A stretch of 45,384 nt of DNA from Novosphingobium sp. (GTDB lineage: Bacteria > Pseudomonadota > Alphaproteobacteria > Sphingomonadales > Sphingomonadaceae): contig JAGREN010000091.1 of the NCBI GenBank assembly GCA_020446505.1, positions 1 through 45,384 on the forward strand, given 5' to 3'. How positions within the stretch are numbered: the stretch's first letter is position 1; the number at the start of each line of letters is the position of its first letter. The notes below the pieces were generated by a model. It was not told the DNA's origin, ran no database searches, and saw nothing but the letters and a program-made list of their open reading frames with translations. Below are positions 12,951-34,507 of this stretch, piece by piece. The translations under genes and the position numbers were made by a program.

Positions 12951-14183
12951 TCAGGCGTGTTTGCCGAGAACGATCGGCAGCCCGGCAACACCGCGCACGT
13001 TGGTGACCGCGACGCGCGTGGCGCGATCAGGGAACACCTTCCAGTCCGGGAAGCGCGTGAACAGTTCCTCGAAGGCAATGGCGATCTCGCGCTGGGCAAG
13101 GTGAATGCCAAGGCACTTGTGCACGCCGAAGCCGAAGAACACGGTGCGGCTGTCGCTATCGCGATCGATATCGAACACGTCGGGGTTAGGGAAAGCGCGC
13201 GGGTCGCGGGTCGCGGAGCCAGTCGCCAGCATGACGCGCTTGTCTGCCGGGATTGTCACGCCATGGAGCGTGACTTCGCGGGTCGTGCAACGCCCCTGAA
13301 GCTGCGACGGCGGGTCGAAACGCAGCACTTCCTGAACGGCCTGCGGTATCTTCGACAGGTCGTTGCCCAGCTTGGCCTTCTCCGCCGGAAACAGCTCCAT
13401 GGCCATGGCACCGCTGGGGATCGCCTTGGCGACTGTCTCGTGCCCGGCGATGGCCATTTCGAGGAAGCGCATGGCGATCTCGTCATCGCCCAGCTTGTGC
13501 ATGACGCCTTCGTCGTCTTCCAGCTCAAGCGCGATCAGCAAGGAAACCGGATCGTCCTTCGGGTTTTCCCGGCGTTCCTGCACCAGCCCGTAGAACAGGC
13601 CGAACAGGCCCACGTTGGCTTCCATCTGCAGGTCTTCGGTCGAACCTTCGCCGCGCGCCAGGAACTTGTTGGCCTGATGATGCACTTCGGCGCGCAGCTC
13701 CTCGGGGATGCCGAGCAGTTCGCTGATGACGTAGAGCGGCAGTTCCACCGAGAACTCAGTCACCATGTCCCATTCGCCATCGGGCCCGTGCTTCTCGTAA
13801 GCCCTCTCGAGCAGGGCAACCGCACGCTGGCGAATGAACGGATCGAGCGCTTCCATGCGCTCGCGGCTGAAGACCTTGGTCATCATCGCCTTGGCCCAGC
13901 CGTGGTCGGGCGCATCCTTGCCGAGCAGGATCATGCCGGCATTTTCCTGCCGCTCGATCGTCACGCCAGCCGCGTTTGAGTAGATCTTGGCGTCGCGGTG
14001 CGCCTTCCACACGTCCTCGTACCGGCTGAGGATGTAGAAATCCATTTCCCTGTGATGGAAGACTGGCGCGTTTTCGCGCATCCATTCGTAGAACGGATAG
14101 GGATCGAGCGCATATTCCATCGAATAGGGATCGAACACGAAGTCGCCTTGTCTCGTGGCGGTTGCGCTCAGTTGCTCAGCCAT
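12951..14183 (-). CDS. Cytochrome P450
   Basis: This 410-residue soluble class-I-type P450 is a heme monooxygenase that needs a separate ferredoxin and reductase, neither of which is in the window. The I-helix motif AIAGHETV keeps the acid-Thr pair used in oxygen activation. The EVLR motif is the K-helix ExxR. The heme loop FGFGVHKCLGIHLA places the thiolate ligand at Cys357. The N-terminus DPYSMEYALDPYPFYEWMRE is typical of bacterial CYPs. ATG 14183 has GGAGAGAG upstream. It lies at the edge of the catabolic cluster and would be expected to start substrate attack by hydroxylation. The substrate is unknown. Confidence 0.95.
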   Translation of the reverse strand: MAEQLSATATRQGDFVFDPYSMEYALDPYPFYEWMRENAPVFHHREMDFYILSRYEDVWKAHRDAKIYSNAAGVTIERQENAGMILLGKDAPDHGWAKAMMTKVFSRERMEALDPFIRQRAVALLERAYEKHGPDGEWDMVTEFSVELPLYVISELLGIPEELRAEVHHQANKFLARGEGSTEDLQMEANVGLFGLFYGLVQERRENPKDDPVSLLIALELEDDEGVMHKLGDDEIAMRFLEMAIAGHETVAKAIPSGAMAMELFPAEKAKLGNDLSKIPQAVQEVLRFDPPSQLQGRCTTREVTLHGVTIPADKRVMLATGSATRDPRAFPNPDVFDIDRDSDSRTVFFGFGVHKCLGIHLAQREIAIAFEELFTRFPDWKVFPDRATRVAVTNVRGVAGLPIVLGKHA

Positions 14184-14319
14184 GAATTACTCTCTCTCCT
14201 GACGCGGACCCGTCATGCCGCAATCGTCTAACCACTTCTTGCCAGACAGCCCATGCCCGAGTCCACGGCCCATTGGCGTCAGGAGCAAACGACGCTCTCG
14301 CGATGTTGGCCAATCGGCA

Positions 14320-15597
14320 TCATGTTGCAGTTTCGACCCAGTCTCGCGCCAGCGAGCGCGCTGCCAGAACCATAAGCACTCCTGCGACCAGATAGAGGCC
14401 GAGGCCCCACAATATCGCCATGCGCAGGCTTTCCTCGCCGTAGGCAGGCGCCAGCGCATCCGACAGCGCCCCCAGCGCATAGATTCCCGCGGCCAATCCA
14501 ATGAGGTTGTTGATGAGGAGAAAAAGCGCCGATGCAGTCGCGCGCGCAGCTGGTTCGACAAGGTGCTGCACTGCCGTCAGCACTGGCCCGAGCCAAACGT
14601 AGCTTAGCCCTTGAGGCACGAGCAGAAGCAGAAAGGCAACCGGCAGACTTTCGCTTGAGACCCCCGTAGCCCACAAGGGCGCGCTTGCGGCATAGGCAAT
14701 TGCAGGTAGCCAGGCATACCAGCCACGGTTGCCCTGCCCCAGCCGATCAGCCAGGCGTCCACCGATGAGAATACCGGCAACGCCGCCGATCAGCAGTACG
14801 CCGGACAGGAACAGGGCCGTATCGAACAGCCCCACGCCGAAGCTGCGCTGCACGAAACTCGGCAGCCAGAAACTGATGCCGTAGCCAATCGACGAACCTG
14901 CGGCCGCACCGAATGAAAGGAACCAGAACGAAGGCTTGCGCACCAGCAGGCGCAGCGTCGCTCCAAGCCCCGGAGCCTGAGACGACGACGCTGACGCGAC
15001 TGGTTCTGGCCGGTCCTTCACCAGCAGTCGGAACAGGGGCGCGAATATCGCCCCGGCCAAACCGATCACGATGAAGGCAACGCGCCAGTTGATCTGTTCC
15101 GCGATGTAGCCCCCTGCCAGCAGCCCGAATGCGGAGCCGAGAGGGATACCAAGCGAGTAGATGGCAAGCGCGCTGGCGCGACGCTCGGGCGCAAACCATT
15201 CGCCGATGACGGCATAGCTTGGCGCAACGCCTCCTGCCTCGCCCACGCCAACGCCAAGACGGGCAAGGAAAATCTGCCAGAAGGATGTCGCCACGCCGCA
15301 CAGCGCGGTGAACATGCTCCATGCAACCAGGCACCATGTGATGACTCGCACACGGCCCGTCCGGTCGGCGAGAGCTGACAGCGGTACTGCCAGCGTCGAA
15401 TAGAGAACGGCAAAGGCAAGACCGCCGAGCAGGCCCATCTCGCCATCCGACAGCTTCAGCTCTGACTGGATCGGCGCAGCCAGGATAGAAAGCAGCATCC
15501 GGTCGAGGAAATTGAACACGTAGACGCCAAGCAGCATCGCAAGGACAATGCCTGCCCGCCGATCATGCTTTGCTGCGTCGATGCGCTGTCCGCTCAT
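14320..15597 (-). CDS. MFS transporter
   Basis: A 425-residue, twelve-helix major facilitator. Residues ~20-50 contain [20 protein letters not shown], and the loop after TM2 reads [14 protein letters not shown], the family G-x3-D-R-x-G-R-(R/K) motif between TM2 and TM3. [11 protein letters not shown] in TM4 is the conserved R-x3-G-x-G-EA signature. GRLADRLG repeats the loop motif after TM8. These features resemble the Spinster/organic-acid-like MFS branch common in degradative clusters, so import of the growth substrate is a reasonable guess. ATG 15597 was chosen because upstream in-frame sequence is hydrophilic and overlaps the divergent operon. It diverges from the 15701 gene by 103 bases. 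Confidence 0.88.
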
Positions 15598-15700
15598 GGT
15601 GCGGTCGTCTCTGGGCGACGTATCGCCGCTTGGAAAGCCCGAATTGATCGGGCAAGGAGTGCGCGCAAGCCGACCCGCCGAGTCTGCCAATGGAGAACTC
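15598..15700. promoter_or_regulatory. Divergent promoter region with two operator-like dyads
   Basis: Between the MFS gene and the beta-oxidation operon are two perfect dyads: GGCGA-CGTA-TCGCC at 15614-15627 and GCCCGA-ATTGA-TCGGGC at 15637-15653. Their position between divergent catabolic genes fits operators for a dimeric regulator. The TetR gene at 25243-25917 is the only regulator in the cluster. Binding is inferred, not shown. GGAGAA at 15692-15697 serves the rightward start codon. Confidence 0.45.
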
Positions 15701-17746
15701 ATGTCTGTCATCACTACCCATCGCGACGGAGAAGTCCTCGTCGTCGTATCCGACAACCCGCCGGTCAACGCGCTGAGCGCAGGCGTGCGTGAGGGACTCT
15801 ACGCAGCAATTCAGGAAGCGAACGGGGACGATACCATCAAGGCCGTCGTCGTCAGGTGCGACGGGCGAACTTTTTTTGCCGGAGCCGATATCACCGAGTT
15901 CGGCAAGCCGACTGGTGCGATCGGTCTCAATCCTGTGATCGATGCGATAGAAGATTGCCCGAAACCTGTCGTCGCCGCGATCCACGGGACCGCCTTGGGC
16001 GGCGGGCTCGAAGTCGCACTAGGCTGTCATTATCGGGTCGCCGTGCCTTCGGCCAAACTCGGCCTTCCGGAGGTCAAATTGGGCCTCATTCCCGGCGCGG
16101 GCGGCACGCAACGCCTGCCGCGCGTTGTCGGCGTCGAAGCGGCCCTGCCGATGACGACCAGCGGCGACCCGATTTTGGCCAGGCAGGCCGAAGCAATCGG
16201 CCTCGTCGACAAGCTGGTGAGCGAAGACTCGCTTGAGGCAGACGCCGTCGCCTTCGCCCGCAGCGTCATCGGCAAACCGCAGCCCGTTTCCAGTTCGCGC
16301 ACGGACAAGATTGCCGGCACCGATCCCGGTGTGTTCGATGCCTTCCGCAAGGCGAATGCACGCAAGCTCAAGGGCTTCGACGCGCCCGAAGCGGCAATCA
16401 AGGCTGTTGAGATCGCCACCAGGTATCCCTTTGCCGAAGGTCTGCAGATGGAGCACGACCTTTTCCAGCCGCTGCTTGCAGGCAGGCAATCGGCAGCGTT
16501 GCGCCATCTTTTCTTCGCCGAACGCGCCGCGAACAAGATCGACGACCTGCCGAAAGACACGCCGATCCTTCCAGTCACCAAGGTCGGCATCATCGGTGCA
16601 GGCACCATGGGCGGCGGGATCGCCATGAACTTCCTGTCGGCGGGCTTTCCCGTCACCATGGTGGAGCGCGAACAGGCGCCGCTCGATCGCGGCGTGGCGA
16701 CCATCCGCAAGAACTACGAGAACACGGCAGCCAAGGGCCGCCTGACCGCCGAGCAGGTGGAAAAGGCGATGGGTCTGCTGACCCCTTCGCTCAACTTCGA
16801 AGATCTTGCCGATTGCGACCTCGTGATCGAGGCGGTGTTCGAGCGTATGGACATCAAGAAAGACGTGTTCGGCAAGCTCGATGGGATCTGCAAGCCCGGC
16901 GCGATCCTCGCCACCAACACCAGCTATCTCGATATCAACGAGATCGCGACCGCGACCAAACGTCCCGAAGCGGTGATCGGCCTGCACTTCTTTTCGCCTG
17001 CCAATGTCATGCGCATGCTCGAAGTGGTACGCGCCGCCAAGACGGGGCCTTCCGTTCTCGCCACCTCGATGAAGATCGCCAAGACCATCGGCAAGGTCGC
17101 GGTCGTGGCAGGCGTTTGCCACGGCTTCATCGGCAACCGCATGCTTGCCGCTCGCCAGCAGCAGGGCGAGGCATTGCTTATGGAAGGCATTCTGCCCGCG
17201 CGCGTGGACAAGGTGCTGACCGACTTCGGTTTCCCCATGGGGCCCTTCCAGATGTCCGACCTTGCCGGACTCGACATCGGCTGGACCAAGGAAACTTCGG
17301 ACCCCACACGCGTTCGCGACGTGCTGTGCGAACGCGGTCGCCTTGGCCAGAAGACCGGCAAGGGCTTCTACGACTATGCCGCGGACCGCACGCGCACGCC
17401 TTCTGAAGAAGTCGACGCGCTGATCCTCGAATATGCCGAAAAGTCAGGCCACAAGCGCGACGACCTAAGCGACGAGGAAATCCTCGAACGCCTGCTTTAC
17501 CCGATGATAAACGAAGCCTGCCTGATCCTCGAGGAAGGCATCGCCCAGCGCGCCAGCGACATCGACGTGATGTACGTTCACGGCTACGGCTGGCCGAGCT
17601 ACACCGGAGGGCCGATGTTCTGGGCAAGCACTGTCGGCCTCGACACAATCGTTGCGGGGCTTGAGAAATACGCCGACAAGTGGCCCGATCTCAAGATTTC
17701 CGCCTTGCTCAAGGACAAGGCAGCCAAGGGCGAAGCGTTCGCCTGA
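15701..17746 (+). CDS. Fused enoyl-CoA hydratase / 3-hydroxyacyl-CoA dehydrogenase
   Basis: The 681-residue protein joins two steps of beta-oxidation. The N-terminal crotonase domain has the oxyanion segment [17 protein letters not shown] and the catalytic glutamates at ~103 (GGGLEVAL) and ~123 (LPEVKLG), followed by [12 protein letters not shown]. The C-terminal dehydrogenase starts with a Rossmann loop [10 protein letters not shown] near residue 297 and has [11 protein letters not shown], which carries the catalytic His. Two HADH C-terminal repeats follow. The length fits the short FadB/FadJ-like class; specificity for a long fatty acid is not implied. ATG 15701 has GGAGAA upstream. It is the first gene of a five-gene operon. 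Confidence 0.93.
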
Positions 17747-17792
17747 GCATCAAGAAATATTACCCTGTTTCCCCTGGAAGGATACAATTGAA

Positions 17793-19199
17793 ATGAGCGA
17801 ATTCAAGCAGTTGATTGGCGGCGAACTGGTAGGCGGCGCACGCGAGATGGACGTCGTCAATCCTGCGAACGGCAAGCCCTTTGCCAAGTGCCCGGTCGCC
17901 GACGAAGCCCAGCTCAACGAAGCCGTCGCCGCCGCCAGGGCCGCGTTCCCGGCTTGGGCCGCCAAGTCGCAGGACGAGCGCGCCGAACTCATCAACAAGG
18001 TCGCAGACGCGCTCGGCGAGCAGACCGCCGATCTCGCTCGCCTGCTCACCACCGAACAGGGCAAGCCGCTCGATCAGGCGGGCATGGAACTGATGGCCTC
18101 GGGCTTCACCATGAAGACCTTTACCGGGATGCGCCTCGAGCCGCGGACCATCCAGGAAAACGAGAAGCAGAAGGTCTACGAAATCCGCAAGCCGCTCGGC
18201 GTCGTCGCAGCGATCACGCCGTGGAACTTCCCGCTGATGATGGTCGTCCACAAGGTCGCCCCGGCCCTTCTCGCCGGCAACACCGTCGTGGTGAAGCCCG
18301 CAGCGACCACACCGCTCACCACGCTCAAGTTCGGCGAGATCTGCCAGAAGATCCTGCCTCCGGGTGTCGTCAACGTGATCTGCGACCAGAACGATCTGGG
18401 CGACAAGCTGACCAGCCACCCCGATGTCGACAAGATCTCGTTCACCGGCTCGACCGCCACCGGCAAGAAGGTGATGGAAGCCGCTTCGCGCGCCGTGAAG
18501 CGCGTGACTCTCGAACTGGGCGGCAATGACGCGGCCATCGTGCTCGACGATGCCGATCCGGTCGAAACCGCGCAGAAGGTGTTTCAGGCCGCCATGGCCA
18601 ATGCCGGTCAGGTCTGCCTCGCGGTCAAGCGCGCCTACGTTCCCGGCAAGATCTACGACGCCTTCTGTGATGAACTGGCTCGCCTCGCTGGCGCGGCCGT
18701 GGTTGACGAAGGCACAGCGCAGGGAGCGCAGATCGGCCCGGTGCAGAACCAGATGCAGTACGAAAAGCTCAAGGGCCTGCTCGAATCCGCCAAGGCCGAA
18801 GGCAAGGTCATCGCTGGCGGCAATGCCATGGACCGCGAAGGCTTCTTCATCGAGCCGACCATCGTGCGCGACGTTACCGAAGATGCGCGGATCGTGCGGG
18901 AGGAACAGTTCGGACCGGTCCTGCCAGTGCTGCGCTATGATGAAATCGAGGACGTACTCGTGCGCGCCAACGACACCGACTACGGCCTTGGCGGCTCGGT
19001 CTGGGGCAAGGACATCGAGCGCGCGACCAAGGTCGCCGAGCGGGTCCAGTCGGGCACAGTCTGGGTCAACCAGCACATGGCGCTGGCGCCGAACATTCCG
19101 TTCCGCGGTGCCAAGCAGTCGGGCATGGGTGCCGAACTCGGCCCTGAAGGCCTCAACGAGTTCACGCAGGCCACTGTAATCAACGTGAAGCTCACTTGA
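17793..19199 (+). CDS. NAD(P)-dependent aldehyde dehydrogenase
   Basis: A 468-residue ALDH-superfamily enzyme that oxidises an aldehyde to an acid. The catalytic nucleophile is Cys275 in NAGQVCLA and the general base Glu241 in LELGGND. The Rossmann NAD contact FTGSTATGKKV and the PWNFPLMMV segment are also clear, and the length is just below the usual ~480-500. The start MSEFKQLIGG at ATG 17793 is preceded by GGAAGGA; an upstream in-frame extension runs into the previous gene's end and is unlikely. It lies 46 bases after the hydratase/dehydrogenase in the same operon. Substrate unknown. Confidence 0.93.
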   Translation: MSEFKQLIGGELVGGAREMDVVNPANGKPFAKCPVADEAQLNEAVAAARAAFPAWAAKSQDERAELINKVADALGEQTADLARLLTTEQGKPLDQAGMELMASGFTMKTFTGMRLEPRTIQENEKQKVYEIRKPLGVVAAITPWNFPLMMVVHKVAPALLAGNTVVVKPAATTPLTTLKFGEICQKILPPGVVNVICDQNDLGDKLTSHPDVDKISFTGSTATGKKVMEAASRAVKRVTLELGGNDAAIVLDDADPVETAQKVFQAAMANAGQVCLAVKRAYVPGKIYDAFCDELARLAGAAVVDEGTAQGAQIGPVQNQMQYEKLKGLLESAKAEGKVIAGGNAMDREGFFIEPTIVRDVTEDARIVREEQFGPVLPVLRYDEIEDVLVRANDTDYGLGGSVWGKDIERATKVAERVQSGTVWVNQHMALAPNIPFRGAKQSGMGAELGPEGLNEFTQATVINVKLT

Positions 19200-19225
19200 T
19201 CCAGCACCGGGAGAAATGATGTCGG

Positions 19226-19576
19226 ATGGTAAAGCCTGACGACAGAATCTGTGATGGCCCGCTCGGCGATGTCGGCACGAAGATGCTGCACGAAGACGAG
19301 CGGGTCCGCATCTGGGAAGTCGATCTCCAGCCCGGCGAGGCCACGGCCCCTCACCGGCATGAGCATGACTACATCCTGATAATCGTCGAAGGCGACCGCA
19401 TCGCCGCCGTGCCGCACGTCGATGCCACCGGGCCTTCGGCGTCCTATATCGAGGCGGAAATTGCGCCCGGCAGCTATGTCGTGATGAAGAAGGGTGGGAC
19501 CGAGGCTGCGGTAAACGTCGGCTCGAAACGATATTTCGAATACCTGATCGAGTTGAAGGACAGATCGTCCGATTAG
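19226..19576 (+). CDS. Small cupin-fold protein
   Basis: 116 residues forming one cupin barrel. The first metal motif is recognisable as PHRHEHDYILIIVEGD (H-x-H-x3-4-...-E-x-G), and the second half has IAPGSYVVMKKGG followed by a FEYLIEL strand. Small cupins of this kind may be metal enzymes or sensors; the role is unknown. ATG 19226 is 11 bases from GGGAGA, rather far. The closer ATGs at 19216 and 19219 share another frame and stop after seven codons (TGA 19237-19239). Third gene of the operon, 26 bases after the aldehyde dehydrogenase. Confidence 0.78.
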   Translation: MVKPDDRICDGPLGDVGTKMLHEDERVRIWEVDLQPGEATAPHRHEHDYILIIVEGDRIAAVPHVDATGPSASYIEAEIAPGSYVVMKKGGTEAAVNVGSKRYFEYLIELKDRSSD

Positions 19577-19606
19577 CCTGCCATACCAAGGGGGAGAACA
19601 TAACAG

Positions 19607-20485
19607 ATGAGCGAAAGGCCAGTCCTTGCGGCAGACAAGCTGCTCGGTTTCAGCGCACCGCGCACGGCATCCGAATGGACTGTGCGGCAGACGATCCTCT
19701 ACAATCTCGGCATTGGCTTCGGTGCTGCCGCAATCGAGGACGACAGCCTGCTTCGCTTCGTTCTGGAGGAGAACACGTCGACCTTCCCGACGATGACGGC
19801 CGTGATGGGCTCGTCCGGCGTAGGCACGGTGTTTTTCGATCCGGCATACGGCATCGACTATCGCATGATCGTCCATGGCGAAGAGGCAGTCGAGATTTTC
19901 GCGCCGCTGCCAGCCGAGGGACAGATTCTCTGCGACAGCGCCATCGAAGGCGTGTGGGATCTCGGAGAAGCCAAGGGCGCGGTCCTTTTGCTCAGCAGGC
20001 GGCTTTACGATGCTGATGCGAAACTGCTTGCCAAGGGCACAACCACCACCATGCTTCGCGGCAACGGCGGCTATGGCGGCAGCGCCGAAGGTGCCCCTCG
20101 CGCCCGGCCCACCCCAGACCGCGCGCCGGACGGCAGCGCCAGTTCGATCACGCGGCCAGAGCAGGCTCTGATCTATCGTCTTTCGGGCGACACCAATCCG
20201 CTGCATTCGACGCCCTCAGTGGCGCGAGCGACAGGTTTTCCCGCACCGATCCTGCACGGCCTGTGCACCTACGGCGTTTGTGCGCGGCTGCTTGTACGCG
20301 CGCTTGCCGGTGGGGATGAGACAAGGCTCACGTTCTACAAGATCCGGCTTTCCAGCCCGGTCTATCCCGGCGAGACGATCCGGGTGGAATGGTGGGACGA
20401 AGGCAGAGGCACCTATGCGTTCCAGGCGAGAGTCGAGGAACGCGACGTCGTCGTGGTAAAGGGCGGCGAAGTTCGTTTCGCCTGA
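19607..20485 (+). CDS. MaoC-type enoyl-CoA hydratase (double hotdog)
   Basis: The protein has 292 residues with two hotdog halves, like the hydratase-2 part of peroxisomal MFE-2. The N-terminal half has VLEENTSTFPTMTAVMG. The C-terminal half contains the hydratase-2 motif YRLSGDTNPLHS near residue 190, with catalytic Asp and His, then GFPAPILHGLCTYG. It hydrates a trans-2-enoyl-CoA to the (3R)-hydroxyacyl-CoA, opposite in stereochemistry to the crotonase domain two genes upstream. GGGGGAG lies before ATG 19607. Having both stereochemical hydratases in one operon suggests a branched or ring-derived acyl-CoA. The exact substrate is unknown. Confidence 0.88.
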   Translation: MSERPVLAADKLLGFSAPRTASEWTVRQTILYNLGIGFGAAAIEDDSLLRFVLEENTSTFPTMTAVMGSSGVGTVFFDPAYGIDYRMIVHGEEAVEIFAPLPAEGQILCDSAIEGVWDLGEAKGAVLLLSRRLYDADAKLLAKGTTTTMLRGNGGYGGSAEGAPRARPTPDRAPDGSASSITRPEQALIYRLSGDTNPLHSTPSVARATGFPAPILHGLCTYGVCARLLVRALAGGDETRLTFYKIRLSSPVYPGETIRVEWWDEGRGTYAFQARVEERDVVVVKGGEVRFA

Positions 20486-20523
20486 CCACGCAACGAGTAT
20501 CCAAACAAGGAAACAGCACAATC

Positions 20524-21204
20524 ATGGAAATCGCACGCAGCCTGATCGAGGAACTGGAAACGTTCTCGACCCCCTCGATCCTCAACGGCCTCAAGCGGCT
20601 CGGCCTTCCGGTCGAGAAGCTGGAAACGATGGACCGGCAGGCAATCGGGTGCATGGCTCCCGGCCTTGGCGCGCGCTGCGGCCTCGCCGTCACGCGCAAG
20701 ATCGCGACCCGCCGCAGCGGTCCGGCCGGTGGCAGCTTGCAGGCCGGACCCGATCAGGGTCTGCTGGCCGCGCCCGGCCCTCGCTTTCTCGTTGTGCAGA
20801 ACGTGGGCGACTGGCGCGGTCCGGTGTCGTGCTGGGGCGAATTGACGGCGCATATCAACGTCGCACTCGATTGCCGCGCAGGCGTGACCAACGGCCCGGT
20901 GCGCGATGTGCCCGAAATGGAACGGGTCGGCTTTGCGACATGGTCCAGCGGCATCGGTCCGGGCGGAGGCCACGTCGACCTGCTAGCGATCAACGAAACG
21001 GTCACGGTTGGCGGCGTCGTGGTCAATCCGGGCGACCTGATGCATGGAGACGCACACGGGGTCGTCAGGATTCCGGCCGACATGGCTGCCGACCTTCCCG
21101 ACGCGATCCGTGCTGCCGAGGCGCGCGAGCAGAAGCTGTTTGCGGTCTGCCGCGATCCGAACTTCACCCTCGAGAAACTGGTCGAGGCGATGAAGCAGTC
21201 CTGA
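20524..21204 (+). CDS. RraA-family aldolase-like protein
   Basis: The protein has 226 residues. The family includes 4-hydroxy-4-methyl-2-oxoglutarate / 4-carboxy-4-hydroxy-2-oxoadipate aldolases, oxaloacetate decarboxylases and the RNase E inhibitor RraA. The metal and substrate motif appears as NGPVRDVPEM (Arg-Asp pair) near residue 125, and GDLMHGDAHGVVRIP forms the conserved GD-x4-D-x2-G block near 175. The N-terminus (FSTPSILNGL) is typical. In this catabolic operon an aldolase releasing pyruvate or oxaloacetate is the sensible reading, rather than RNase control. ATG 20524 has AAGGAAAC upstream. It is the last gene of the operon, ending at a hairpin. Confidence 0.85.
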   Translation: MEIARSLIEELETFSTPSILNGLKRLGLPVEKLETMDRQAIGCMAPGLGARCGLAVTRKIATRRSGPAGGSLQAGPDQGLLAAPGPRFLVVQNVGDWRGPVSCWGELTAHINVALDCRAGVTNGPVRDVPEMERVGFATWSSGIGPGGGHVDLLAINETVTVGGVVVNPGDLMHGDAHGVVRIPADMAADLPDAIRAAEAREQKLFAVCRDPNFTLEKLVEAMKQS

Positions 21205-21216
21205 CCGGGCGGGCAT

Positions 21217-21251
21217 GAAAAAGCCGCCGGTTCCGTGTGAGAACCGGCGGC
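21217..21251 (-). terminator. Terminator between convergent genes
   Basis: A perfect 11-bp stem, GCCGCCGGTTC (21223-21233) with GAACCGGCGGC (21241-21251), has a 7-base loop. Read on the minus strand it is followed by TTTTTC, so it is a classical intrinsic terminator for the SnoaL-like gene ending at 21273. On the plus strand it lies just after the RraA-family gene without a T-run, and may also stop that operon. Confidence 0.85.
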
Positions 21252-21272
21252 CATTCACTCATGTAACCGCTG

Positions 21273-21881
21273 TCAGGGAATGACCTTCGAGGCGTCCTTT
21301 GCCTGCTGGCCTTCCCAGGTCCAGGGCTTACGGTCGTCCATCGGCGGCAGTTCGTTCAGAGGCGAGGAACCACCTTCGAACTGATCGACCTTGAAGCCGA
21401 ACCCGCCATCGATGGTGGTTTTCCGAATCTTCCAGCCCTTGTCGGTGCGCACGTAGGTGTTGGTGCGCAGCGACAGGCCGACCGACGGTTTGGCCCCGCG
21501 GAACTGGAACATGCCGAGCTGCACCGCCTTGCCGGTCGCTTCGTCGCCGTTCACCTCAACCGCTTGCGAGACGCATACCTGGAAAACGTAGGGCAGCGGT
21601 CCGGCATCGCCGTAGAAATAGTCCCAGTACTCAGTGTATTGCTCACGACCCTTCGGTCCCTTGCCCGGATCGTGCAGGCCCTTGACCTCGAATGTCGCAT
21701 CTTCGGACAGTTCGTCGAGGCATTCCATCTTGCCTGCCTGCGATCCACCGAAACCGCCGCAGCAATTCCAGTGAAAGCGGTGAAAGCAATCTTCGATCTC
21801 GCGCACGTCTTGCAATTCGCGCAAGCGCTTTGCCTGATCCGCGACCTGCGCCTCCAGCGCGGCCAGCCTGTCTTCGCTCAT
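21273..21881 (-). CDS. SnoaL-like (NTF2-fold) protein 1
   Basis: 202 residues: an N-terminal coiled coil (MSEDRLAALEAQVADQAKRL, heptad Leu/Ala), then an NTF2/SnoaL-like cone fold with VREIEDCFHRFHWNCCGG, a conserved TEYWDYFYGDAGPLPYVFQ block and a basic strand DKGWKIRKTTIDGG. The end reads NELPPMDDRKPWTWE. NTF2-fold proteins may be isomerases, cyclases or dehydratases on small alicyclic substrates. No Asp-His pair can be assigned by eye. ATG 21881 is preceded by AGAGAGG. It is co-directional with, and clearly paralogous to, the next gene upstream, so the pair is a tandem duplication in one transcript. Function unknown. Confidence 0.8.
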   Translation of the reverse strand: MSEDRLAALEAQVADQAKRLRELQDVREIEDCFHRFHWNCCGGFGGSQAGKMECLDELSEDATFEVKGLHDPGKGPKGREQYTEYWDYFYGDAGPLPYVFQVCVSQAVEVNGDEATGKAVQLGMFQFRGAKPSVGLSLRTNTYVRTDKGWKIRKTTIDGGFGFKVDQFEGGSSPLNELPPMDDRKPWTWEGQQAKDASKVIP

Positions 21882-21914
21882 TTCAATTCCTCTCTTGGCT
21901 AATGCTCAAAATAT

Positions 21915-22502
21915 TCAGGAGCCGGCCTTGGCAGCATCCTTCGCCTGCTGGGCTTCCCAAGTCCACGGCTTGCGATCGTCCATCGGGGGAAGTTCGTTGA
22001 GCGCATGCTGGCCCGGAGCCAGTTCTTCGACATGGAAACCGAGTCCGCCATCGATCGTGGTCCGGGTGATCTTCCAGCCCTTGTCCGTGCGCTTGTAGTA
22101 ATTGCGGCGAGTGGCCAGGTTGAAGGCAGGCTTGCCGCCGCGGAAACCGAACAGGCCGATCATTACGCACCAGCTTTCGGCGACGTCGCCCGTAACCTCG
22201 ACGAACTCCGAAACGGCCGCCTGAAACACATAGGGCAGCGGGCCGGCATCGCCATAGAAATAGTCCCAGTACTCGGTGACCTGCTCGCGCCCCTTGGGGC
22301 CCTTGCCCGGCTCGTGCAGACCCTTGACTTCGATCGTCGCATCGTCGGCAAGGCTGTCAAGCGCTTCCATGCGCCCGGCCTGCACGCCGTTGTAGCCGCC
22401 GCAGCAGTGCCAGTTGAACTTGCGCGCAGCGTCGGTGATCTCGCGCACGTCCTCCAACTCCCTTACGCGGGCTTCCAGTTCGGCCAGCTTCGAATCGCTC
22501 AT
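21915..22502 (-). CDS. SnoaL-like (NTF2-fold) protein 2
   Basis: 195 residues from ATG 22502, chosen for AGGGAGA 8 bases upstream; the 8 residues of possible upstream extension overlap that site. It aligns with the neighbour at 21273 over the whole length, sharing the N-terminal coiled coil, the WHCCGG block, KGLHEPGKGPKGREQ, TEYWDYFYGDAGPLPYVFQ and the terminal NELPPMDDRKPWTWE. Differences concentrate in the strand region (FGFRGGKPAFNLATRRNYYK versus FQFRGAKPSVGLSLRTNTYV), which would line the cavity, so the two may act on different intermediates or form a heteromer. First gene of the pair, divergent from the aldehyde dehydrogenase at 22691. Confidence 0.8.
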   Translation of the reverse strand: MSDSKLAELEARVRELEDVREITDAARKFNWHCCGGYNGVQAGRMEALDSLADDATIEVKGLHEPGKGPKGREQVTEYWDYFYGDAGPLPYVFQAAVSEFVEVTGDVAESWCVMIGLFGFRGGKPAFNLATRRNYYKRTDKGWKITRTTIDGGLGFHVEELAPGQHALNELPPMDDRKPWTWEAQQAKDAAKAGS

Positions 22503-22690
22503 TTTTTCATTCTCCCTTTCAGGCATCCTAATTGCGTTAACTCAAAACACGCCCACCCCGATTCGCGACCGGGACACGCGCATCTCATAAAATCCGGCTC
22601 ATCGCCTGCAAACCATAGCCTTGCGGAAAGTAACACGCTTGGCTAGTGGAGAATCGAGCGATGCCCTGAAACTAGCTATAGAGTGAACCC
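22503..22690. promoter_or_regulatory. Divergent intergenic region, SnoaL pair / aldehyde dehydrogenase
   Basis: This 188-base gap between divergent genes must hold two promoters. I see no long dyad like those at 15614-15653. GCTAGT (near 22641) and ACTAGC (near 22671) form a loose inverted pair. The ribosome binding site before ATG 22691 is poor (AGTGAACCC), in contrast to AGGGAGA on the minus side. Confidence 0.35.
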
Positions 22691-24151
22691 ATGTCGATAG
22701 TGGCCCCACGGCTTGATTTGCTGCCGAAGTCCGATTTCATCATCGGAAAGACCGTTAACGGAGGGGGCGTTCGCGAATACGACCACCTCTATCCTGCCGA
22801 TGCCAAGCTGACCCGCAAGGTCGCCGTCGCCGGCAAGGAAGAAGTCGACGCCGCCGTGCGCGCTGCTCGCGCCGCCCTGCCCGGCTGGCGCGCCACTCCG
22901 GTGAACGAGAAGCGCAAGATGATGCTGCGCTTTGCCCAGCTCATCCGCGAGAATGGAGAGCGGCTGAAGCGCGTCGTCAATGCAGAGAACGGCGGCATCT
23001 ACCACCAGCTCGACTGGTTCGTGGAATGGGACGCCGACCTGTTCGAATACAACGCCGGCTATGCCGACAAGATTTGCGGCGAAGTGGTTCCGATCTGGCC
23101 GCAGCAGGCTTTCGATTACACCATCGACGAGCCCTATGGCGTGATCGGCATCCTCGTTCCGTGGAACGGTCCGGTCATTTCGTTTGGCCAGATGATCGCT
23201 CCTGCCATGGCAGGCGGCAACACCTGCATCATCAAGCCGACGGAGTTCGCGCCCTACTCCTGCCTGTTCCTGGGCGAGCTCGCCCTCGAGGCCGGGATTC
23301 CCGAAGGCGTCATCAACGTGATCCCCGGCAATGTCGAAGCCGGCGAGGCGATGACCCGGCACCCCGGCATCGACAAGCTGCACTTCACCGGCAGCGGCAA
23401 TACCGCGCGCAAGATTTTGCAGGGTGCGGCCGAGAACCTGACGCCTGTCGGCCTCGAACTGGGCGGCAAGTCGGCCCGTCTCGTATTTCCCGACTGCGAT
23501 TGGGAACAGGCGGTCCAGACCGTGGTGATGACGGCGGTCGCCAATGCCGGCCAGGCCTGCATCGCTGGCTCGCGCGCGCTGGTGCACGAGTCGATCTACG
23601 TCAAGTTCCTCGCCGACTGCCAGGCGCTGGCCAACCAGATTCCGATCGGCGACCCGAACTCGACCAGCACGGTCATGGGTCCGATCGCGCACCGCCTCCA
23701 GTACGATCGCATCATGTCGATGCTCGATCATGCCCGCAGCGAGGGCGCGGACTTCCTGTCGGGCGGCGAAGCGGCCGGCGGTGACCTTTCCGACGGCTAC
23801 TTCATCAAGCCGACCCTCATCAACGATCCGGATGCCAAGCTGGAAATCACCCGCGAGGAAGTTTTCGGCCCGGTCGTCAGCCTCATGCCGTTCAAGGACG
23901 AGGACGATGGCGTCGCCAAGGCAAACGACACCGTATTCGGCCTTGCCGCCTACATCGAGAGCACCAATATCAAGACGGTCCATCGCGTCGCGGCCAAGCT
24001 CGATGCAGGCAACGTTCTGGTCAATGGCGCAGGCGGACTGCCCACGGCGGCGCCGTTCGGCGGCCACAAGCAGAGCGGCGTCGGCCGGGTCGGCGGCATC
24101 TGGGGCATTCGCGAATTCATTCGCACCAAGAATGTCCACATCGCGATGTAA
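22691..24151 (+). CDS. NAD(P)-dependent aldehyde dehydrogenase 2
   Basis: A 486-residue ALDH-superfamily enzyme with catalytic Cys290 in NAGQACIAGSR and Glu256 in LELGGKS. The coenzyme segments PWNGPVISFGQ and FTGSGNTARKI are intact, and the C-terminal AAPFGGHKQSGVGRVGG is typical. It is only distantly like the aldehyde dehydrogenase at 17793, so the cluster encodes two separate dehydrogenation steps or two aldehyde intermediates. It is followed after 78 bases by a VOC gene on the same strand, probably the same transcript. Substrate unknown. Confidence 0.93.
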   Translation: MSIVAPRLDLLPKSDFIIGKTVNGGGVREYDHLYPADAKLTRKVAVAGKEEVDAAVRAARAALPGWRATPVNEKRKMMLRFAQLIRENGERLKRVVNAENGGIYHQLDWFVEWDADLFEYNAGYADKICGEVVPIWPQQAFDYTIDEPYGVIGILVPWNGPVISFGQMIAPAMAGGNTCIIKPTEFAPYSCLFLGELALEAGIPEGVINVIPGNVEAGEAMTRHPGIDKLHFTGSGNTARKILQGAAENLTPVGLELGGKSARLVFPDCDWEQAVQTVVMTAVANAGQACIAGSRALVHESIYVKFLADCQALANQIPIGDPNSTSTVMGPIAHRLQYDRIMSMLDHARSEGADFLSGGEAAGGDLSDGYFIKPTLINDPDAKLEITREEVFGPVVSLMPFKDEDDGVAKANDTVFGLAAYIESTNIKTVHRVAAKLDAGNVLVNGAGGLPTAAPFGGHKQSGVGRVGGIWGIREFIRTKNVHIAM

Positions 24152-24177
24152 TTGTGCTATATCTTTGTGCAGAGACG

Positions 24178-24209
24178 GTGCGCCGTGCGAAAGCCACGGC
24201 CCGGCGCAC
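24178..24209 (+). other. GC-rich hairpin upstream of VOC gene 1
   Basis: GTGCGCCG (24178-24185) pairs with CGGCGCAC (24202-24209) across a 16-base loop, 20 bases before the ATG of the first VOC gene and touching its ribosome binding site GGAGAAGGAG. There is no T-run. It could dampen read-through from the dehydrogenase gene or mark an mRNA processing site. Sequence evidence is the dyad alone. Confidence 0.4.
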
Positions 24210-24229
24210 AGGAGAAGGAGTAAACTATC

Positions 24230-24631
24230 ATGGCTAAAGCGAAACTGCGCCACGTTGCCATCAACTGCGAGGATCTCGAAGGCGAAGCAAAGTTCTTCAA
24301 GGATGCCTTCGACCTTGAAGAAGTTGGGCGTGCCGGCGACGTCACCAAGTCTGGCGCGATCTACATGAGCGACGGCGTGATGAACATTGCGCTCATTCGC
24401 ATCGAAGATCCGAATTTCCCGAATTATAACCCTCAGGGTCTCAACCACATCGGTTTCGTCGTGGAAGATCTCGACGCCGTGATCGATTCGGCCGAAGCCG
24501 CCGGAGCCAAGTCTATGGTTGACCGCGACAACAAGGACGCGGGCGTGACCTGGGAAATGAAGATGAAGTCACCCAGCGGCAAGTTCGACTTCGACCTCTC
24601 GGACCACGGCTGGCCGGGCATCAAGCTCTGA
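24230..24631 (+). CDS. VOC-superfamily protein 1 (glyoxalase/dioxygenase fold)
   Basis: 133 residues with two beta-alpha-beta-beta-beta modules of the vicinal-oxygen-chelate fold. Candidate metal ligands are His in KLRHVAI near residue 8, His in GLNHIGFVV near 70, and an acidic residue in the final strand FDFDLSDHGW. A single chain of this size would normally dimerise to complete the metal site. VOC proteins include glyoxalase I, extradiol dioxygenases and epimerases such as methylmalonyl-CoA epimerase, so the reaction is open. GGAGAAGGAG precedes ATG 24230. It follows the aldehyde dehydrogenase and has a close paralogue 206 bases downstream. Confidence 0.82.
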   Translation: MAKAKLRHVAINCEDLEGEAKFFKDAFDLEEVGRAGDVTKSGAIYMSDGVMNIALIRIEDPNFPNYNPQGLNHIGFVVEDLDAVIDSAEAAGAKSMVDRDNKDAGVTWEMKMKSPSGKFDFDLSDHGWPGIKL

Positions 24632-24680
24632 TCCGGTACTAGTTCGACTGCCCGCCAGGATTGGCGTGGCACGACCAGCG

Positions 24681-24715
24681 GGGCTGCATGCGCAAGGGCG
24701 CGTGCGGCCCTGTTT
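24681..24715 (+). terminator. Intrinsic terminator after VOC gene 1
   Basis: A 13-bp stem with two G-U pairs (5' arm 24681-24693, 3' arm 24698-24710, loop AAGG) is followed by TGTTT. It lies 50 bases after the VOC gene and separates it from its paralogue, which should therefore have its own promoter in 24716-24830. Confidence 0.6.
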
Positions 24716-24837
24716 GCGTCTGGGGGCGGGAAGCCTCGATCAGCTAAAAGAAATTACTCTTTTCACCCTTGGGTTGATATCGCGCAATTTCGCCGGAGCC
24801 GCTCCGTCCTAGTGTCGTTCGGGAAAGGAGAGCTGTC

Positions 24838-25233
24838 ATGGCCAAACCGAAACTGCGTCACGTCGCTATCAAAACCGATGATGTTCACAAGGAAGCCGCG
24901 TTCTGGAGCAAGTCCTTCGACCTCGAGCAGGTCGGCGGTCACGGAGACGTCGCTGTCTTCCTGAGCGACGGGGTGATGAACCTCGCGATCATCAAGATCC
25001 CCGAGGACATGAAGGATTTCCCGAACTACGACGCCCCCTATGGCCTCAACCATATCGGCTTCGTCGTTGACGATATCGATACACAGGTTGCCAAGTGCAG
25101 CGGCGAGGGCGCGGTAGCGACTGTCGATCCGAACCATCGCGACGCTGGCGCAACCTGGGAAATGAAGATGCGCTCGCCGAGCGGCATCGACATCGACCTG
25201 TCCGACCACGGCTGGCCGGGCATCACCCTCTGA
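24838..25233 (+). CDS. VOC-superfamily protein 2
   Basis: The protein has 131 residues and aligns end to end with the VOC protein at 24230. Shared blocks are KLRHVAI near the start, LSDGVMN, GLNHIGFVV, TWEMKM-SPSG and the terminal DLSDHGWPGI. The same His/His/acid positions are kept, so both copies should bind metal if either does. It has its own GGAAAGGAG site before ATG 24838 and lies behind a terminator, suggesting separate expression. It converges on the TetR gene with a 9-base gap. Reaction and substrate unknown. Confidence 0.82.
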   Translation: MAKPKLRHVAIKTDDVHKEAAFWSKSFDLEQVGGHGDVAVFLSDGVMNLAIIKIPEDMKDFPNYDAPYGLNHIGFVVDDIDTQVAKCSGEGAVATVDPNHRDAGATWEMKMRSPSGIDIDLSDHGWPGITL

Positions 25234-25242
25234 GGCGAACCG

Positions 25243-25917
25243 CTACTGTCCGATCATGGCGCCGACAAGGAGGTCGATCAGCCAGTCGATCTCCTTGCGT
25301 CTTGTGGCATCGACGGACCGCTTACCCGACAACACGATGTCGAGGTGCATGCCGCGCAGGAACAAGGTCAGGGCTTTTGTGGGCTCGTCTATGTTCGTGA
25401 TCGGCGTCCCGGAACGCTCGGCATAGGCATTGATGACGTTCTTGATGCCAGCGCGAGACGCTTCCGAAAGTGCCTCGCCAGCCGCACGCAATTCCGGAAA
25501 GCGGTGCGATTCGCCGTAGATCAGCCGCACGATCCCATAGTGCTCGGCATCGAGGCCGATCTCCAGGCTCCGGTACGAAAACTCGCGCAGCATGTCCGCG
25601 AGAGGACGCGAAGGCGCTTCGACCGCGCGAATGCGGTCGCTAAGATCGCCTTCGACCATCTTCTTCATCATGGCGATGAAGAGGTCTTCCTTGGATGCGA
25701 AACGCGAATAGAGCGTCGTCTTCGAGACCCCGGCGGCCTTGACGATGGTCGCCATCGAAGTGCCGCCGTAACCTTGCTTGAGGAACTCGGACAACGCGAC
25801 GCGGACCAGTTCCTTTTCGATGTCAGCGACTTCTTCCAGACGCGGCCTGCCACGCGTGCGCCGACGCGGCGCGCGTGTCGCAGCTGGTTTTCGCTTGGTG
25901 GCACTCGTCGCAGTCAT
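25243..25917 (-). CDS. TetR-family regulator
   Basis: The protein has 224 residues. A Lys/Arg-rich tail of ~30 residues (ATKRKPAATRAPRRRTRGRP) precedes the DNA-binding domain, where the helix-turn-helix reads TSMATIVKAAGVSKTTLYSRFASKEDLF, the classical TetR signature. The C-terminal ligand-binding domain is helical and ends in WLIDLLVGAMIGQ. ATG 25917 has GAGGGGCG upstream and is preferred over a TTG at 25944. As the only regulator in the catabolic cluster, it is the best candidate repressor, with an acyl-CoA or the substrate as ligand; that is inference. The basic N-terminal extension is longer than usual. Confidence 0.9.
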   Translation of the reverse strand: MTATSATKRKPAATRAPRRRTRGRPRLEEVADIEKELVRVALSEFLKQGYGGTSMATIVKAAGVSKTTLYSRFASKEDLFIAMMKKMVEGDLSDRIRAVEAPSRPLADMLREFSYRSLEIGLDAEHYGIVRLIYGESHRFPELRAAGEALSEASRAGIKNVINAYAERSGTPITNIDEPTKALTLFLRGMHLDIVLSGKRSVDATRRKEIDWLIDLLVGAMIGQ

Positions 25918-26050: not shown

Positions 26051-27331
26051 ATGCATGACCTTACCGCATTCGATGCAGCGGCAATCCTGATCGTTCTTGC
26101 CGCACTGCTCGGCTATCTCAATCACGTCTGGCTCAAGCTGCCATCCACTGTCGGGCTGACGGTGATGGGCGCCGTCGCCTCTGTTCTGGTGGTGCTGTAC
26201 GATCGCGCCCTCCCCTCCAGCATGCTGGCCGAAAATCTCACCGCCTTCCTGAGTGGTGTCGATTTCCACAAGACGCTGATGGAAGGAATGCTCTCGTTCC
26301 TGCTGTTCGCAGGCGCAATGCATGTCGACTGGCAAGACATGCACAAGGGACGCTGGCCGATCCTGGTGTTCAGTACGGTAGGCGTACTGATCTCGACCGC
26401 GATCGTCGGGTTTCTGTTCCATTTCCTGACCCGCGCGCTTGGCGTCGAAGTGCCTCTGTCATGGTGCTTCGTGTTCGGCGCACTCATCAGCCCGACCGAT
26501 CCCGTCGCCGTGATGGGCGTGATGAAGCGGGCCTCCGTGCCGGAAACGCTGCAAGCCACGGTTGCAGGCGAAAGCCTGTTCAACGACGGTGTGGGCGTTG
26601 TCGTTTTCTCCATCCTGCTTGCCATCGCGATGGGAACGGAACCTTTCAGCCTGGCGGGAGCAACGCTCGATTTCCTGCACGAAGCAGGTGGCGGCGCCTT
26701 GCTCGGCCTTGTGTCGGGCTGGATCGCCTATCGCATGATGCGCTCGATCGACGAATACAACATCGAGGTTCTCATCAGCCTCGCCGTGGTGATGGGCGGC
26801 TACAGCCTCGCAATGGCGCTTCATGTCAGCGGCCCGGTGGCAATGGCCGTGGCGGGCATCATCATCGGCAATCAGGGCGTTGCCTATGCCATGAGCGACA
26901 CGACGCAGGACTACCTCATCAAGTTCTGGGCGCTGGTCGACGAGATGCTCAACGCCGTGCTGTTCCTGCTGATCGGGCTGGAAGTCATCATCCTCGCGCT
27001 GGAAGCGCGCTACGTCCTGGCTGGCTTCGGCGCGATCCTCATTGCTCTGGCGGCACGGATCATCTCGGTCGGGCTGCCGCTTCGCGCCATGCGAGGGATG
27101 ATCGATATGGGGCCGCTCGCGCTTCCCACCTTGGTGTGGGGCGGTCTGCGCGGCGGCATATCCGTCGCACTTGCGCTATCCCTGCCCGAAAGCGAGATCC
27201 GCGCCGAACTTCTGGTTGCAACCTATGCTGTGGTGCTGTTCGCAGTCGTCGTACAGGGCGGCACCATCGGCAACCTGATCGAGCGGATCAAGGCGCGGCA
27301 GATGCTCGACACGGAGATCTCGAATTTATGA
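26051..27331 (+). CDS. CPA1-family Na+/H+ antiporter
   Basis: A 426-residue polytopic membrane protein of the monovalent cation:proton antiporter-1 (NhaP/NHE) family. Core transport residues are visible in ALISPTDPVAVMGVMK (TDP motif) near residue 145 and GESLFNDGVGVVVF (ND motif) near 180. A conserved Arg-containing segment LVWGGLRGGISVALALSLP lies in a late helix. It exports Na+ or K+ in exchange for protons. ATG 26051 was chosen over TTG 26030. The stop overlaps the start of the DUF389 gene (ATGA), so the two are translationally coupled, which suggests a joint role in ion or pH homeostasis. Confidence 0.92.
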   Translation: MHDLTAFDAAAILIVLAALLGYLNHVWLKLPSTVGLTVMGAVASVLVVLYDRALPSSMLAENLTAFLSGVDFHKTLMEGMLSFLLFAGAMHVDWQDMHKGRWPILVFSTVGVLISTAIVGFLFHFLTRALGVEVPLSWCFVFGALISPTDPVAVMGVMKRASVPETLQATVAGESLFNDGVGVVVFSILLAIAMGTEPFSLAGATLDFLHEAGGGALLGLVSGWIAYRMMRSIDEYNIEVLISLAVVMGGYSLAMALHVSGPVAMAVAGIIIGNQGVAYAMSDTTQDYLIKFWALVDEMLNAVLFLLIGLEVIILALEARYVLAGFGAILIALAARIISVGLPLRAMRGMIDMGPLALPTLVWGGLRGGISVALALSLPESEIRAELLVATYAVVLFAVVVQGGTIGNLIERIKARQMLDTEISNL

Positions 27332-29046: not shown

Positions 29047-29062
29047 CAGCGATTGCCGAATC

Positions 29063-30424: not shown

Positions 30425-30495
30425 TCGCCTCCCGAAAGCCCTGACGAGCCCTGATTGTTCCTGACCGGGGCGCACATGGCAAGGCCGGGTTCGGA

Positions 30496-34046: not shown

Positions 34047-34445
34047 ATGATCCACGAAGGTGGCTGCCAATGCGGTGCAGTGCGATATGCGATTGAAGAC
34101 GGCGCCTACCGTACCGCTCTTTGTCACTGCCGTGACTGTCAGAAGAGCGCCGGTGCGCCCTTTGTCAGCTGGACTGCGGTTCCTGGGGAGCGTTTCCGGA
34201 TCACAAGGGGTGAGCCTGTCACGCACAATTCGTCCGGTGCTTCGATGCGCAGTTTCTGCGGCACTTGCGGCACTGGCCTCTGGTTCATCAACGAGGAGAT
34301 GCTGCCGGGCATAGTCGACATCCAAACCGCGACGTTCGACGATCCTGACTCCTTTCCAGCGCAGAAACAGGTGCAAGTCGCAGAGCGCATTGGATGGATG
34401 GCAACAGCACACGATTTGCCCTCGTTCGATCGCTTTGGCGGATAA
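34047..34445 (+). CDS. GFA/CENP-V family zinc protein
   Basis: 132 residues of the Gfa-like zinc fold. The metal cysteines are in GCQCGAVRY near residue 7, CHCRDCQKSAG near 26 and CGTCGTGL near 71, the usual two-site pattern (CxC, CxxC, CxxC). The founding member was described as binding glutathione and helping formaldehyde trapping, but most relatives have no proven activity. GAGGTAAAGGGG lies directly before ATG 34047. A LexA-like box sits 24 bases upstream. It is not in an obvious operon, being followed after 62 bases by a small lipoprotein gene on the same strand. Confidence 0.9.
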   Translation: MIHEGGCQCGAVRYAIEDGAYRTALCHCRDCQKSAGAPFVSWTAVPGERFRITRGEPVTHNSSGASMRSFCGTCGTGLWFINEEMLPGIVDIQTATFDDPDSFPAQKQVQVAERIGWMATAHDLPSFDRFGG

Positions 34446-34507
34446 ATTTCGCCAGACCGGGAAACATTTGGCCGCGGTCTCGTTGATAGGGGCAGAGGAA
34501 CCCTATT

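Follow-up and report, generated by a model that had tools for sequence, protein, structure and literature searches.

The stretch of Novosphingobium sp. DNA analysed here (contig JAGREN010000091.1, positions 1 to 45,384; hereafter the window, meaning the whole stretch of 45,384 nucleotides) carries thirteen genes at positions 12951–25917, twelve of which form a genuine and conserved block, which is rare and, to the extent of our searches, uncharacterised, although its enzymes are of known kinds. The evidence from sequences supports a coherent, conserved catabolic block. With moderate confidence, we propose that it represents one module of a CoA-dependent pathway by which a specialised sphingomonad degrades a methyl-branched or alicyclic carboxylic compound of steroid- or terpenoid-like type. 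This proposal starts from the gene families, the conservation of the block, the recurrence of a smaller core next to genes for a lipid-transfer thiolase (Ltp) and a DUF35 protein, and the neighbourhood shared by a cytochrome P450 and an acyl-CoA ligase in related genomes.

With the exception of the P450 gene, all are found as a block in three further sphingomonad genomes, G016, G012 and G740 (HKST-UBA125), at identities of 74–97% and with unchanged order wherever the contigs extend. The order from the MFS transporter to the TetR regulator is identical in G016 and G012, and HKST-UBA125 keeps it from the MFS transporter to the first VOC protein (VOC1), its contig stopping at both sides there. 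The named relatives bearing the block are metagenome-assembled genomes (MAGs) of Novosphingobium and Sphingomonadaceae. Among the 39 gene pairs formed with these three genomes, some G012 and G740 copies being partial, the 36 usable ones all have dN/dS values of 0.03–0.17, which show the marks of strong purifying selection on the thirteen genes. Three pairs with G740 were set aside: the second aldehyde dehydrogenase (ALDH2) gave no value, TetR had no match because of the contig end, and the value of 0.456 for VOC2 was dropped because the G740 contig ends inside VOC1, so that paralogues were compared. The more distant pairs with DC_out238 (G741) and G076, reaching 0.74, include paralogues and were left out of the count. 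By eye, the catalytic residues typical of the respective families look intact, namely, the heme Cys of the P450, the Cys and Glu of both aldehyde dehydrogenases, the residues of the FadB-type fusion and the D..NPLH motif of MaoC.

The window is a single contig (C116) of a draft genome of 3.18 Mb in 178 contigs that is 94% complete. The P450 stop lies at 12951 and the ATG of the TetR gene at 25917. A preliminary description of this DNA had listed the thirteen genes; all were located as stated, and Pfam confirmed their families (Table 1, with corrected starts for the MFS, fusion and ALDH1 genes), albeit weakly for the cupin (Cupin_2, 19.8 bits versus a cut-off of 27.2). Gene orientation defines five putative transcription units: MFS with P450 (minus strand); the fusion of enoyl-CoA hydratase (ECH) and 3-hydroxyacyl-CoA dehydrogenase (HCDH), ALDH1, cupin, MaoC and RraA (plus); SnoaL_a with SnoaL_b (minus); ALDH2, VOC1 and VOC2 (plus); and TetR (minus). 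Genes on the same strand are separated by 26–78 bp, except for VOC1–VOC2 (206 bp) and MFS–P450 (136 bp), whereas the divergent gaps measure 103 bp between MFS and the fusion, and 164 or 188 bp between SnoaL_a and ALDH2, depending on the SnoaL_a start. The divergent promoters noted in the preliminary description come down to divergent gene orientation, because a sigma-70 scan returned 2 sites versus 2.3 expected by chance, with no promoter signal above that level.

Table 1. Features of the catabolic locus, with positions in the window and supporting matches
Feature	Position	Strand	Matches (Pfam E-values; identities)
Cytochrome P450	12951..14183	-	PF00067 2.7e-28
MFS transporter	14320..15597	-	PF07690 9e-53; 80-83% in G016, G012, G740 (G012, G740 copies partial)
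Fused enoyl-CoA hydratase/3-hydroxyacyl-CoA dehydrogenase, FadB type	15701..17746	+	3HCDH_N 2.7e-63, ECH_1 7.5e-39; 84-86% in G016, G012, G740
Aldehyde dehydrogenase 1 (ALDH1)	17793..19199	+	Aldedh 1.1e-154
Small cupin-like protein	19226..19576	+	Cupin_2 6.4e-4, below cut-off; 85-89% in G016, G012, G740
MaoC hydratase, peroxisomal hydratase-2 type	19607..20485	+	MaoC 2.3e-26, MFE-2 hydratase N 1e-14
RraA-like/HMG-CHA aldolase family protein	20524..21204	+	PF03737 8e-19
Terminator-like hairpin between convergent RraA and SnoaL_b	21222..21252	-	13-pair stem
SnoaL_4 protein b (SnoaL_b)	21273..21881	-	PF13577 4.3e-8; 67% to SnoaL_a
SnoaL_4 protein a (SnoaL_a)	21915..22526 (alternative ATG 22502)	-	PF13577 1.9e-6
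Aldehyde dehydrogenase 2 (ALDH2)	22691..24151	+	Aldedh 2.8e-146
VOC protein 1 (VOC1)	24230..24631	+	Glyoxalase_4 3.6e-11
VOC protein 2 (VOC2)	24838..25233	+	Glyoxalase_4 1e-7; 61-63% to VOC1
TetR-family regulator	25243..25917	-	TetR_N 3e-15; 58-77% in G016, G012, DC_out238

With regard to regulation, we propose that TetR would control the whole gene set. A by-eye check of aligned intergenic regions, from the window and up to four relatives, revealed no motif common to all regions that could represent a shared operator; conserved stretches occur within single regions, for instance around 22530–22548 and just upstream of ALDH2. The hairpin downstream of RraA has the longest stem of the 11 terminator-like sites listed, which as a class are at chance level (11 observed, 11.5 expected). 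Stress responses commonly involve TetR, MFS, ALDH and VOC genes, and the distribution of the genes over several units with no operator recognised by eye would also suit a detoxification island, in which the ALDHs and VOC proteins clear aldehydes and dicarbonyls and the other genes are unrelated neighbours. This explanation appears improbable, since four genomes preserve the order, the core is found again in another genus and, unlike general stress genes, these genes occur in very few genomes of the family.

This rarity, in counts that all include the window's own genome, is apparent at several taxonomic scales. SnoaL relatives occur in 3 of the 61 genomes of a near panel (own, G012 and G016), and the SnoaL family profile is matched in 2 of 397 sampled family genomes (own and G076). 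VOC1 was found in the same two among 298 genomes, the P450 at E≤1e-90 in four of 298 (own, G071, G076 and G314) and RraA at E≤1e-60 in a single one of 299 genomes sampled from the phylum. When 84,980 species genomes were scanned for SnoaL with a pattern-based approach, 58 candidate stretches led to 13 loci: four sphingomonad loci with the block or core, two extra SnoaL copies in two of the same MAGs, four Blastococcus/Trujillonella strains, one Acidobacteriota MAG and two Actinomycetes MAGs. The extra copies (L025 and L026; 47% identity) lie in another neighbourhood, with low-identity P450 and ALDH genes, and L025 also holds luciferase-like, zinc alcohol dehydrogenase and SDR genes. A plasmid origin received no support from a search of plasmid records, where SnoaL had no match and all RraA matches stayed below 60% identity (35% for the best-ranked one).

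A smaller core, consisting of ALDH2, VOC1, SnoaL and RraA, recurs with 56–89% identity in two more sphingomonads, DC_out238 and G076, the latter belonging to another genus. In DC_out238, the order is a partial Ltp gene at the contig end, DUF35, RraA, SnoaL_a, ALDH2, VOC1 and TetR. In G076, the region of 2.0–13.3 kb comprises an old yellow enzyme (OYE)-type flavoenzyme, an EthD protein, ALDH2, VOC1, an MFS transporter on the opposite strand and unrelated to that of the window (27–32%), MaoC, Ltp, DUF35, RraA and SnoaL; the part from ALDH2 to SnoaL spans 4.9–13.3 kb, and the five shared core genes are 52–63% identical. The flavoenzyme (Oxidored_FMN plus Pyr_redox) and the EthD-domain protein, at L030:1989-4769 of contig C8, adjoin this core. 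In both genomes, RraA thus has genes for a lipid-transfer thiolase and for an OB-fold protein of the ChsH2/DUF35 kind next to it. In the four Blastococcus/Trujillonella loci, SnoaL likewise faces ALDH2 (51–52%) with P450s nearby, and a scan of ten proteins from these loci identified, among others, lipid-transfer thiolases, ChsH2-OB proteins, acyl-CoA dehydrogenases, TetR and MFS. The Acidobacteriota and Actinomycetes loci have SnoaL near a P450 (38–39% to that of the window), a lipid-transfer thiolase and two amidohydrolases (by Pfam on L022, with the same clusters in L023 and L024). SnoaL–ALDH2 is the most widespread pair seen, joined in sphingomonads by RraA, VOC1 and MaoC.

The P450 had been described as part of the cluster, but it adjoins the MFS gene only in the window and is not a fixed neighbour of the block. 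Its orthologues in G016, G012 and G740 (90–91% identity) are located on contigs other than that of the block. In G016 (C55, L085) and G740 (C158, L084), the orthologue faces the operon of an AMP-binding acyl-CoA ligase, with a third SnoaL_4 protein, an SDR and a sulfotransferase (assigned by Pfam in G016, and by 70–90% similarity in G740), and contig ends leave the distance to the block open; the MFS gene of the G016 block adjoins a different P450 (28%) and an SDR. In G012, the P450 contig ends inside the MFS gene of the block, where the block contig begins (window 14709 and 14705), placing P450, a truncated ligase, an amidohydrolase, a second P450 and an SDR directly beside the block, with four genes between P450 and MFS. 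The top NCBIfam model of the ligase is steroid-24-oyl-CoA synthetase (CasG), with a sub-cutoff score of 316.8 bits versus 750, at most a hint at the substrate class. A ligase orthologue was not found in the window genome, a 94% draft, where the best match has 39% identity. The simplest reading would be a larger ancestral locus that was trimmed in the window genome. The absence of ligase and thiolase, pointed out in the preliminary description, holds for the window block and fails for the system, as relatives carry the ligase beside the P450 orthologue and Ltp with DUF35 beside RraA; it looks like a property of the trimmed version.

In the pathway that we propose, the MFS transporter would import the substrate or an intermediate, and the P450 would hydroxylate the substrate at a methyl or ring carbon. 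Ranked by bits, the solved relatives of the P450 are 7wex (183.6), CYP125MRCA (181.6), CYP130 (174.1), a vitamin D hydroxylase (172.8) and CYP124A1 (167). ALDH1 and ALDH2 would then oxidise aldehydes to acids; their best models are aminobutyraldehyde dehydrogenase (458 bits, cut-off 615) and HpaE (390 bits, cut-off 638), respectively. An enoyl-CoA would be formed by a ligase and acyl-CoA dehydrogenases whose genes lie elsewhere, and would be hydrated by MaoC or by the FadB-like fusion. The latter has its ECH and HCDH domains in one chain (478.5 bits with the FadB model, below the equivalog cut-off of 870). MaoC, whose MaoC and MFE-2 hydratase N domains both exceed the Pfam cut-off and whose nearest solved relatives by sequence are 3khp (2e-50) and 1s9c (1.1e-48), is of the hydratase-2 type and, by family, R-specific. 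Judged by family, the two hydratase stereochemistries previously noted are thus both present, as an S-type fusion and an R-type MaoC. Cleavage of a carbon–carbon bond could involve a tertiary or branched 3-hydroxyacyl-CoA and an Ltp–DUF35 aldolase or thiolase acting in trans, and/or a derived 2-oxo acid and RraA. The release of a C3 or C4 keto acid by RraA, put forward earlier, is a family-based prediction: the protein matches the solved structures 3k4i (9e-11) and 3noj (3.6e-8), and the Arg-Asp pair aligns with that of the CHA aldolase 3noj.

VOC1 and VOC2, single modules of 131–133 residues, might epimerise a branched acyl-CoA. The VOC1 model (pLDDT 71) has methylmalonyl-CoA epimerases as best fold matches and no extradiol dioxygenase among the best 50, and an epimerase would suit a branched acyl-CoA. 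The VOC proteins score 24.6 and 20.2 bits against TIGR03081 (methylmalonyl-CoA epimerase; cut-off 114.95), so that the likeness is one of fold. The weak NCBIfam matches of VOC1 are of both epimerase and dioxygenase kinds, and the top one is catechol 2,3-dioxygenase (26 bits of 320). Aromatic meta-cleavage has to be weighed as well: a VOC protein would open a catechol, the HpaE-like ALDH2 would oxidise the semialdehyde, and RraA would act as a LigK-like pyruvate-releasing aldolase. The residues H8, H73 and D122 invariant in six VOC1/VOC2 sequences would fit this route, as would the shared fold family and the retained Arg-Asp pair of RraA, which matches the LigK/PcmE model with 47 bits (cut-off 304.5). 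This score falls well short of the LigK (4-carboxy-4-hydroxy-2-oxoadipate aldolase) level, the neighbours also differ, and no LigAB family of the protocatechuate 4,5-cleavage (Lig) pathway was found among the block genes scanned, nor did the Pfam scan of the block reveal decarboxylase, tautomerase or 2-oxo acid hydratase families. Together with the single-module VOCs and the CoA enzymes represented by the FadB fusion, MaoC and the Ltp–DUF35 neighbours, these features render the aromatic route unlikely. Since the model, although of modest confidence, favours epimerases, a ring-cleaving role of the VOC proteins was demoted to this rival.

The SnoaL pair, for which SnoaL_4 is above the Pfam cut-off in both proteins, would be a lyase or isomerase acting on the ring part. 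The model of SnoaL_b (NTF2 fold, pLDDT 80) has LinA, LdpA and bile-acid 7alpha-dehydratases including BaiE as nearest solved folds, with a best Foldseek E-value of 2.1e-7 and 15–20% identity to the LinA, BaiE and LdpA structures. Enzymes of this type use a catalytic His. Among 16 SnoaL relatives, Asp25, Cys40, Asp61, Tyr98 and a GDxGPLPYVFQ loop are invariant, but no His is, which speaks against a catalytic His of LinA/BaiE type; alignments of the SnoaL profile to two usual SnoaL_4 proteins were too weak to locate the corresponding site. The SnoaL proteins thus share Pfam family and fold with the lyases LinA, BaiE/Hsh2 and LdpA and, because no His is invariant, may be lyases with another active site or binding proteins.

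No characterised cluster with the same gene set was found in the open-licence literature, in agreement with the preliminary description. Among characterised loci of sphingomonads, the closest one found is the edc cluster for estrogen degradation in Novosphingobium (Caenibius) tardaugens, which shares with our block the sphingomonad host, divergent operons with TetR, a ferredoxin-less P450, ECH, HCDH and MaoC, and likewise relies on redox partners encoded elsewhere (PMC7793797). ChsH2-like and Ltp genes are present in edc itself, whereas here they are found in relatives only. Further, the EthD protein Hsh3 is reported as a 7beta-hydroxysteroid dehydratase, and Hsh2 and BaiE as NTF2-like steroid dehydratases (PMC12175502), and the G076 core combines SnoaL, EthD and an OYE-type flavoenzyme. 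With the CasG-like ligase, these similarities raise the question of whether the block belongs, in divergent form, to a known steroid pathway of bile-salt, sterol or estrogen type, as a module for the side chain or the ring. The gene set differs, however, from that of edc, which includes the extradiol dioxygenase EdcB, the indolepyruvate ferredoxin oxidoreductase (IOR, EdcC), acyl-CoA dehydrogenases, thiolases and a TonB receptor (PMC7793797). The block has single-module VOCs and no EdcB-like extradiol dioxygenase, and neither IOR nor a TonB receptor is among its genes scanned, the receptor at 39006 being 13 kb away. Conversely, ALDHs, the SnoaL pair, small VOCs and RraA are particular to the block, and the words SnoaL and aldehyde dehydrogenase do not occur in the main text of the edc report. 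In addition, none of the 13 SnoaL loci comes from a recognised, studied steroid degrader, although one MAG (two loci) bears a Chol11 label. Membership of a known steroid pathway is therefore, in our view, rather unlikely.

The steroid C3 side-chain module ChsH1-ChsH2/Ltp2 (Sal2) offers a second comparison. The MaoC hydratase fold is common to both, and Ltp with DUF35 stands beside the core in G076 and DC_out238. The window block, in contrast, lacks a heteromeric acyl-CoA dehydrogenase and a dedicated CoA ligase, contains no Ltp or DUF35 gene (pairs of these occur elsewhere in the genome), and its MaoC is a single hydratase-2 chain. In PMC8399759, Sphingobium Chol11 and related bile-acid degraders are described as lacking Sal2/Ltp2 homologues; because such a pair recurs beside the core in two relatives, the present lineage seems to differ from them.

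Given these partners, the DUF35 content of the genomes was considered. The window genome (G000) harbours 14 OB_ChsH2_C (DUF35) genes, and the block genomes G000, G012 and G016, with 14, 12 and 12, are the top three of the 61-genome panel (41 with at least one gene; next counts 9, 8 and 8). The chance of three given genomes holding these ranks would be 1 in 35,990 if they were independent, a figure that makes the ranking look more striking than it is, since they are relatives. The block genomes are also small (2.6–3.2 Mb). Ten of the 14 DUF35 genes were examined, and all ten have a lipid-transfer thiolase beside them. Acyl-CoA dehydrogenases, CoA-transferases, amidohydrolases, P450s and Rieske proteins were noticed, mostly by eye, around several DUF35 genes (C79, C81, C98, C109 and C122), in what look like further catabolic clusters. 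The pair on C109 is closest to the in-block pairs, its thiolase sharing 58% identity with the G076 thiolase and 67% with the DC_out238 fragment, and its DUF35 protein 46% and 50%. Orthologues of this thiolase occur at 94–95% in the three other block genomes and at 86% in DC_out238. As resident paralogue, the C109 thiolase could serve the block. Elsewhere, the window genome also encodes AMP-binding enzymes and six Fer2 domains.

Several points weigh against the degradation module that we favour. The window block lacks Ltp, DUF35, ligase and acyl-CoA dehydrogenase genes, and the view that its Ltp–DUF35 pair has merely been relocated to another contig was rejected: the C109 copy is not the moved partner, because DC_out238 has a separate orthologue of it beside the in-block copy. 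The high DUF35 counts of the three block genomes may stem from common descent, and the resemblance of Ltp–DUF35 to the benzoylsuccinyl-CoA thiolase BbsAB makes the label of aldolase uncertain. The P450 lacks a strict tie to the block, having relatives in G071 (63 and 58%) and G314 (52 and 43%), both without a SnoaL match; DC_out238 has the core without the P450, and at E≤1e-60 no orthologue was found in that genome or in the Blastococcus genome tested. ALDHs, MaoC, RraA, VOCs and ligase all score below the cut-offs of the named NCBIfam models, among which the dioxygenase match of VOC1 also counts here. Nor is RraA known to act on CoA esters. Substrate class, reaction order, regulation and the roles of the SnoaL, VOC and cupin proteins are read from sequences and models. 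The Ltp–DUF35 pair is absent from the block of the four block genomes, where RraA stays, whereas in DC_out238 and G076 the three genes adjoin one another. This distribution could suggest that an RraA-family aldolase took over the carbon–carbon cleavage performed in relatives by Ltp/DUF35, with a SnoaL pair that lacks an invariant His and perhaps has an unrecognised active site, in a pathway for a compound of unstudied degradation, a scenario that we regard as very doubtful.

Outside the block, a 1861-residue open frame (7115-12700, minus strand) adjoins the P450 gene and carries repeated bacterial Ig/cadherin-like domains, probably forming a large surface or secreted protein. After TetR, genes for a Na/H exchanger, DUF389, Sulfotransfer_3 and CitMHS follow at 26051-32283, as they do in DC_out238, and a sulfotransferase directly follows TetR in G016 and G012. 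Further to the right, the flank at 34059-45382 is mostly collinear with G016, which suggests the same chromosomal site, and includes at 39006-42838 the TonB-dependent receptor, a PKHD-type 2OG-Fe(II) hydroxylase and an SDR.

If the degradation of a methyl-branched or alicyclic compound is indeed its function, the locus would mark a sphingomonad group, whose named members in the SnoaL scan are so far all MAGs, with small genomes that are, where counted, rich in DUF35. In PMC8399759, bile-acid side-chain degradation in sphingomonads is described as unresolved. The locus would be a concrete place to look for such side-chain chemistry, bile acids as substrate not being implied by the present data, and it offers a short, expressible gene set for finding the substrate.

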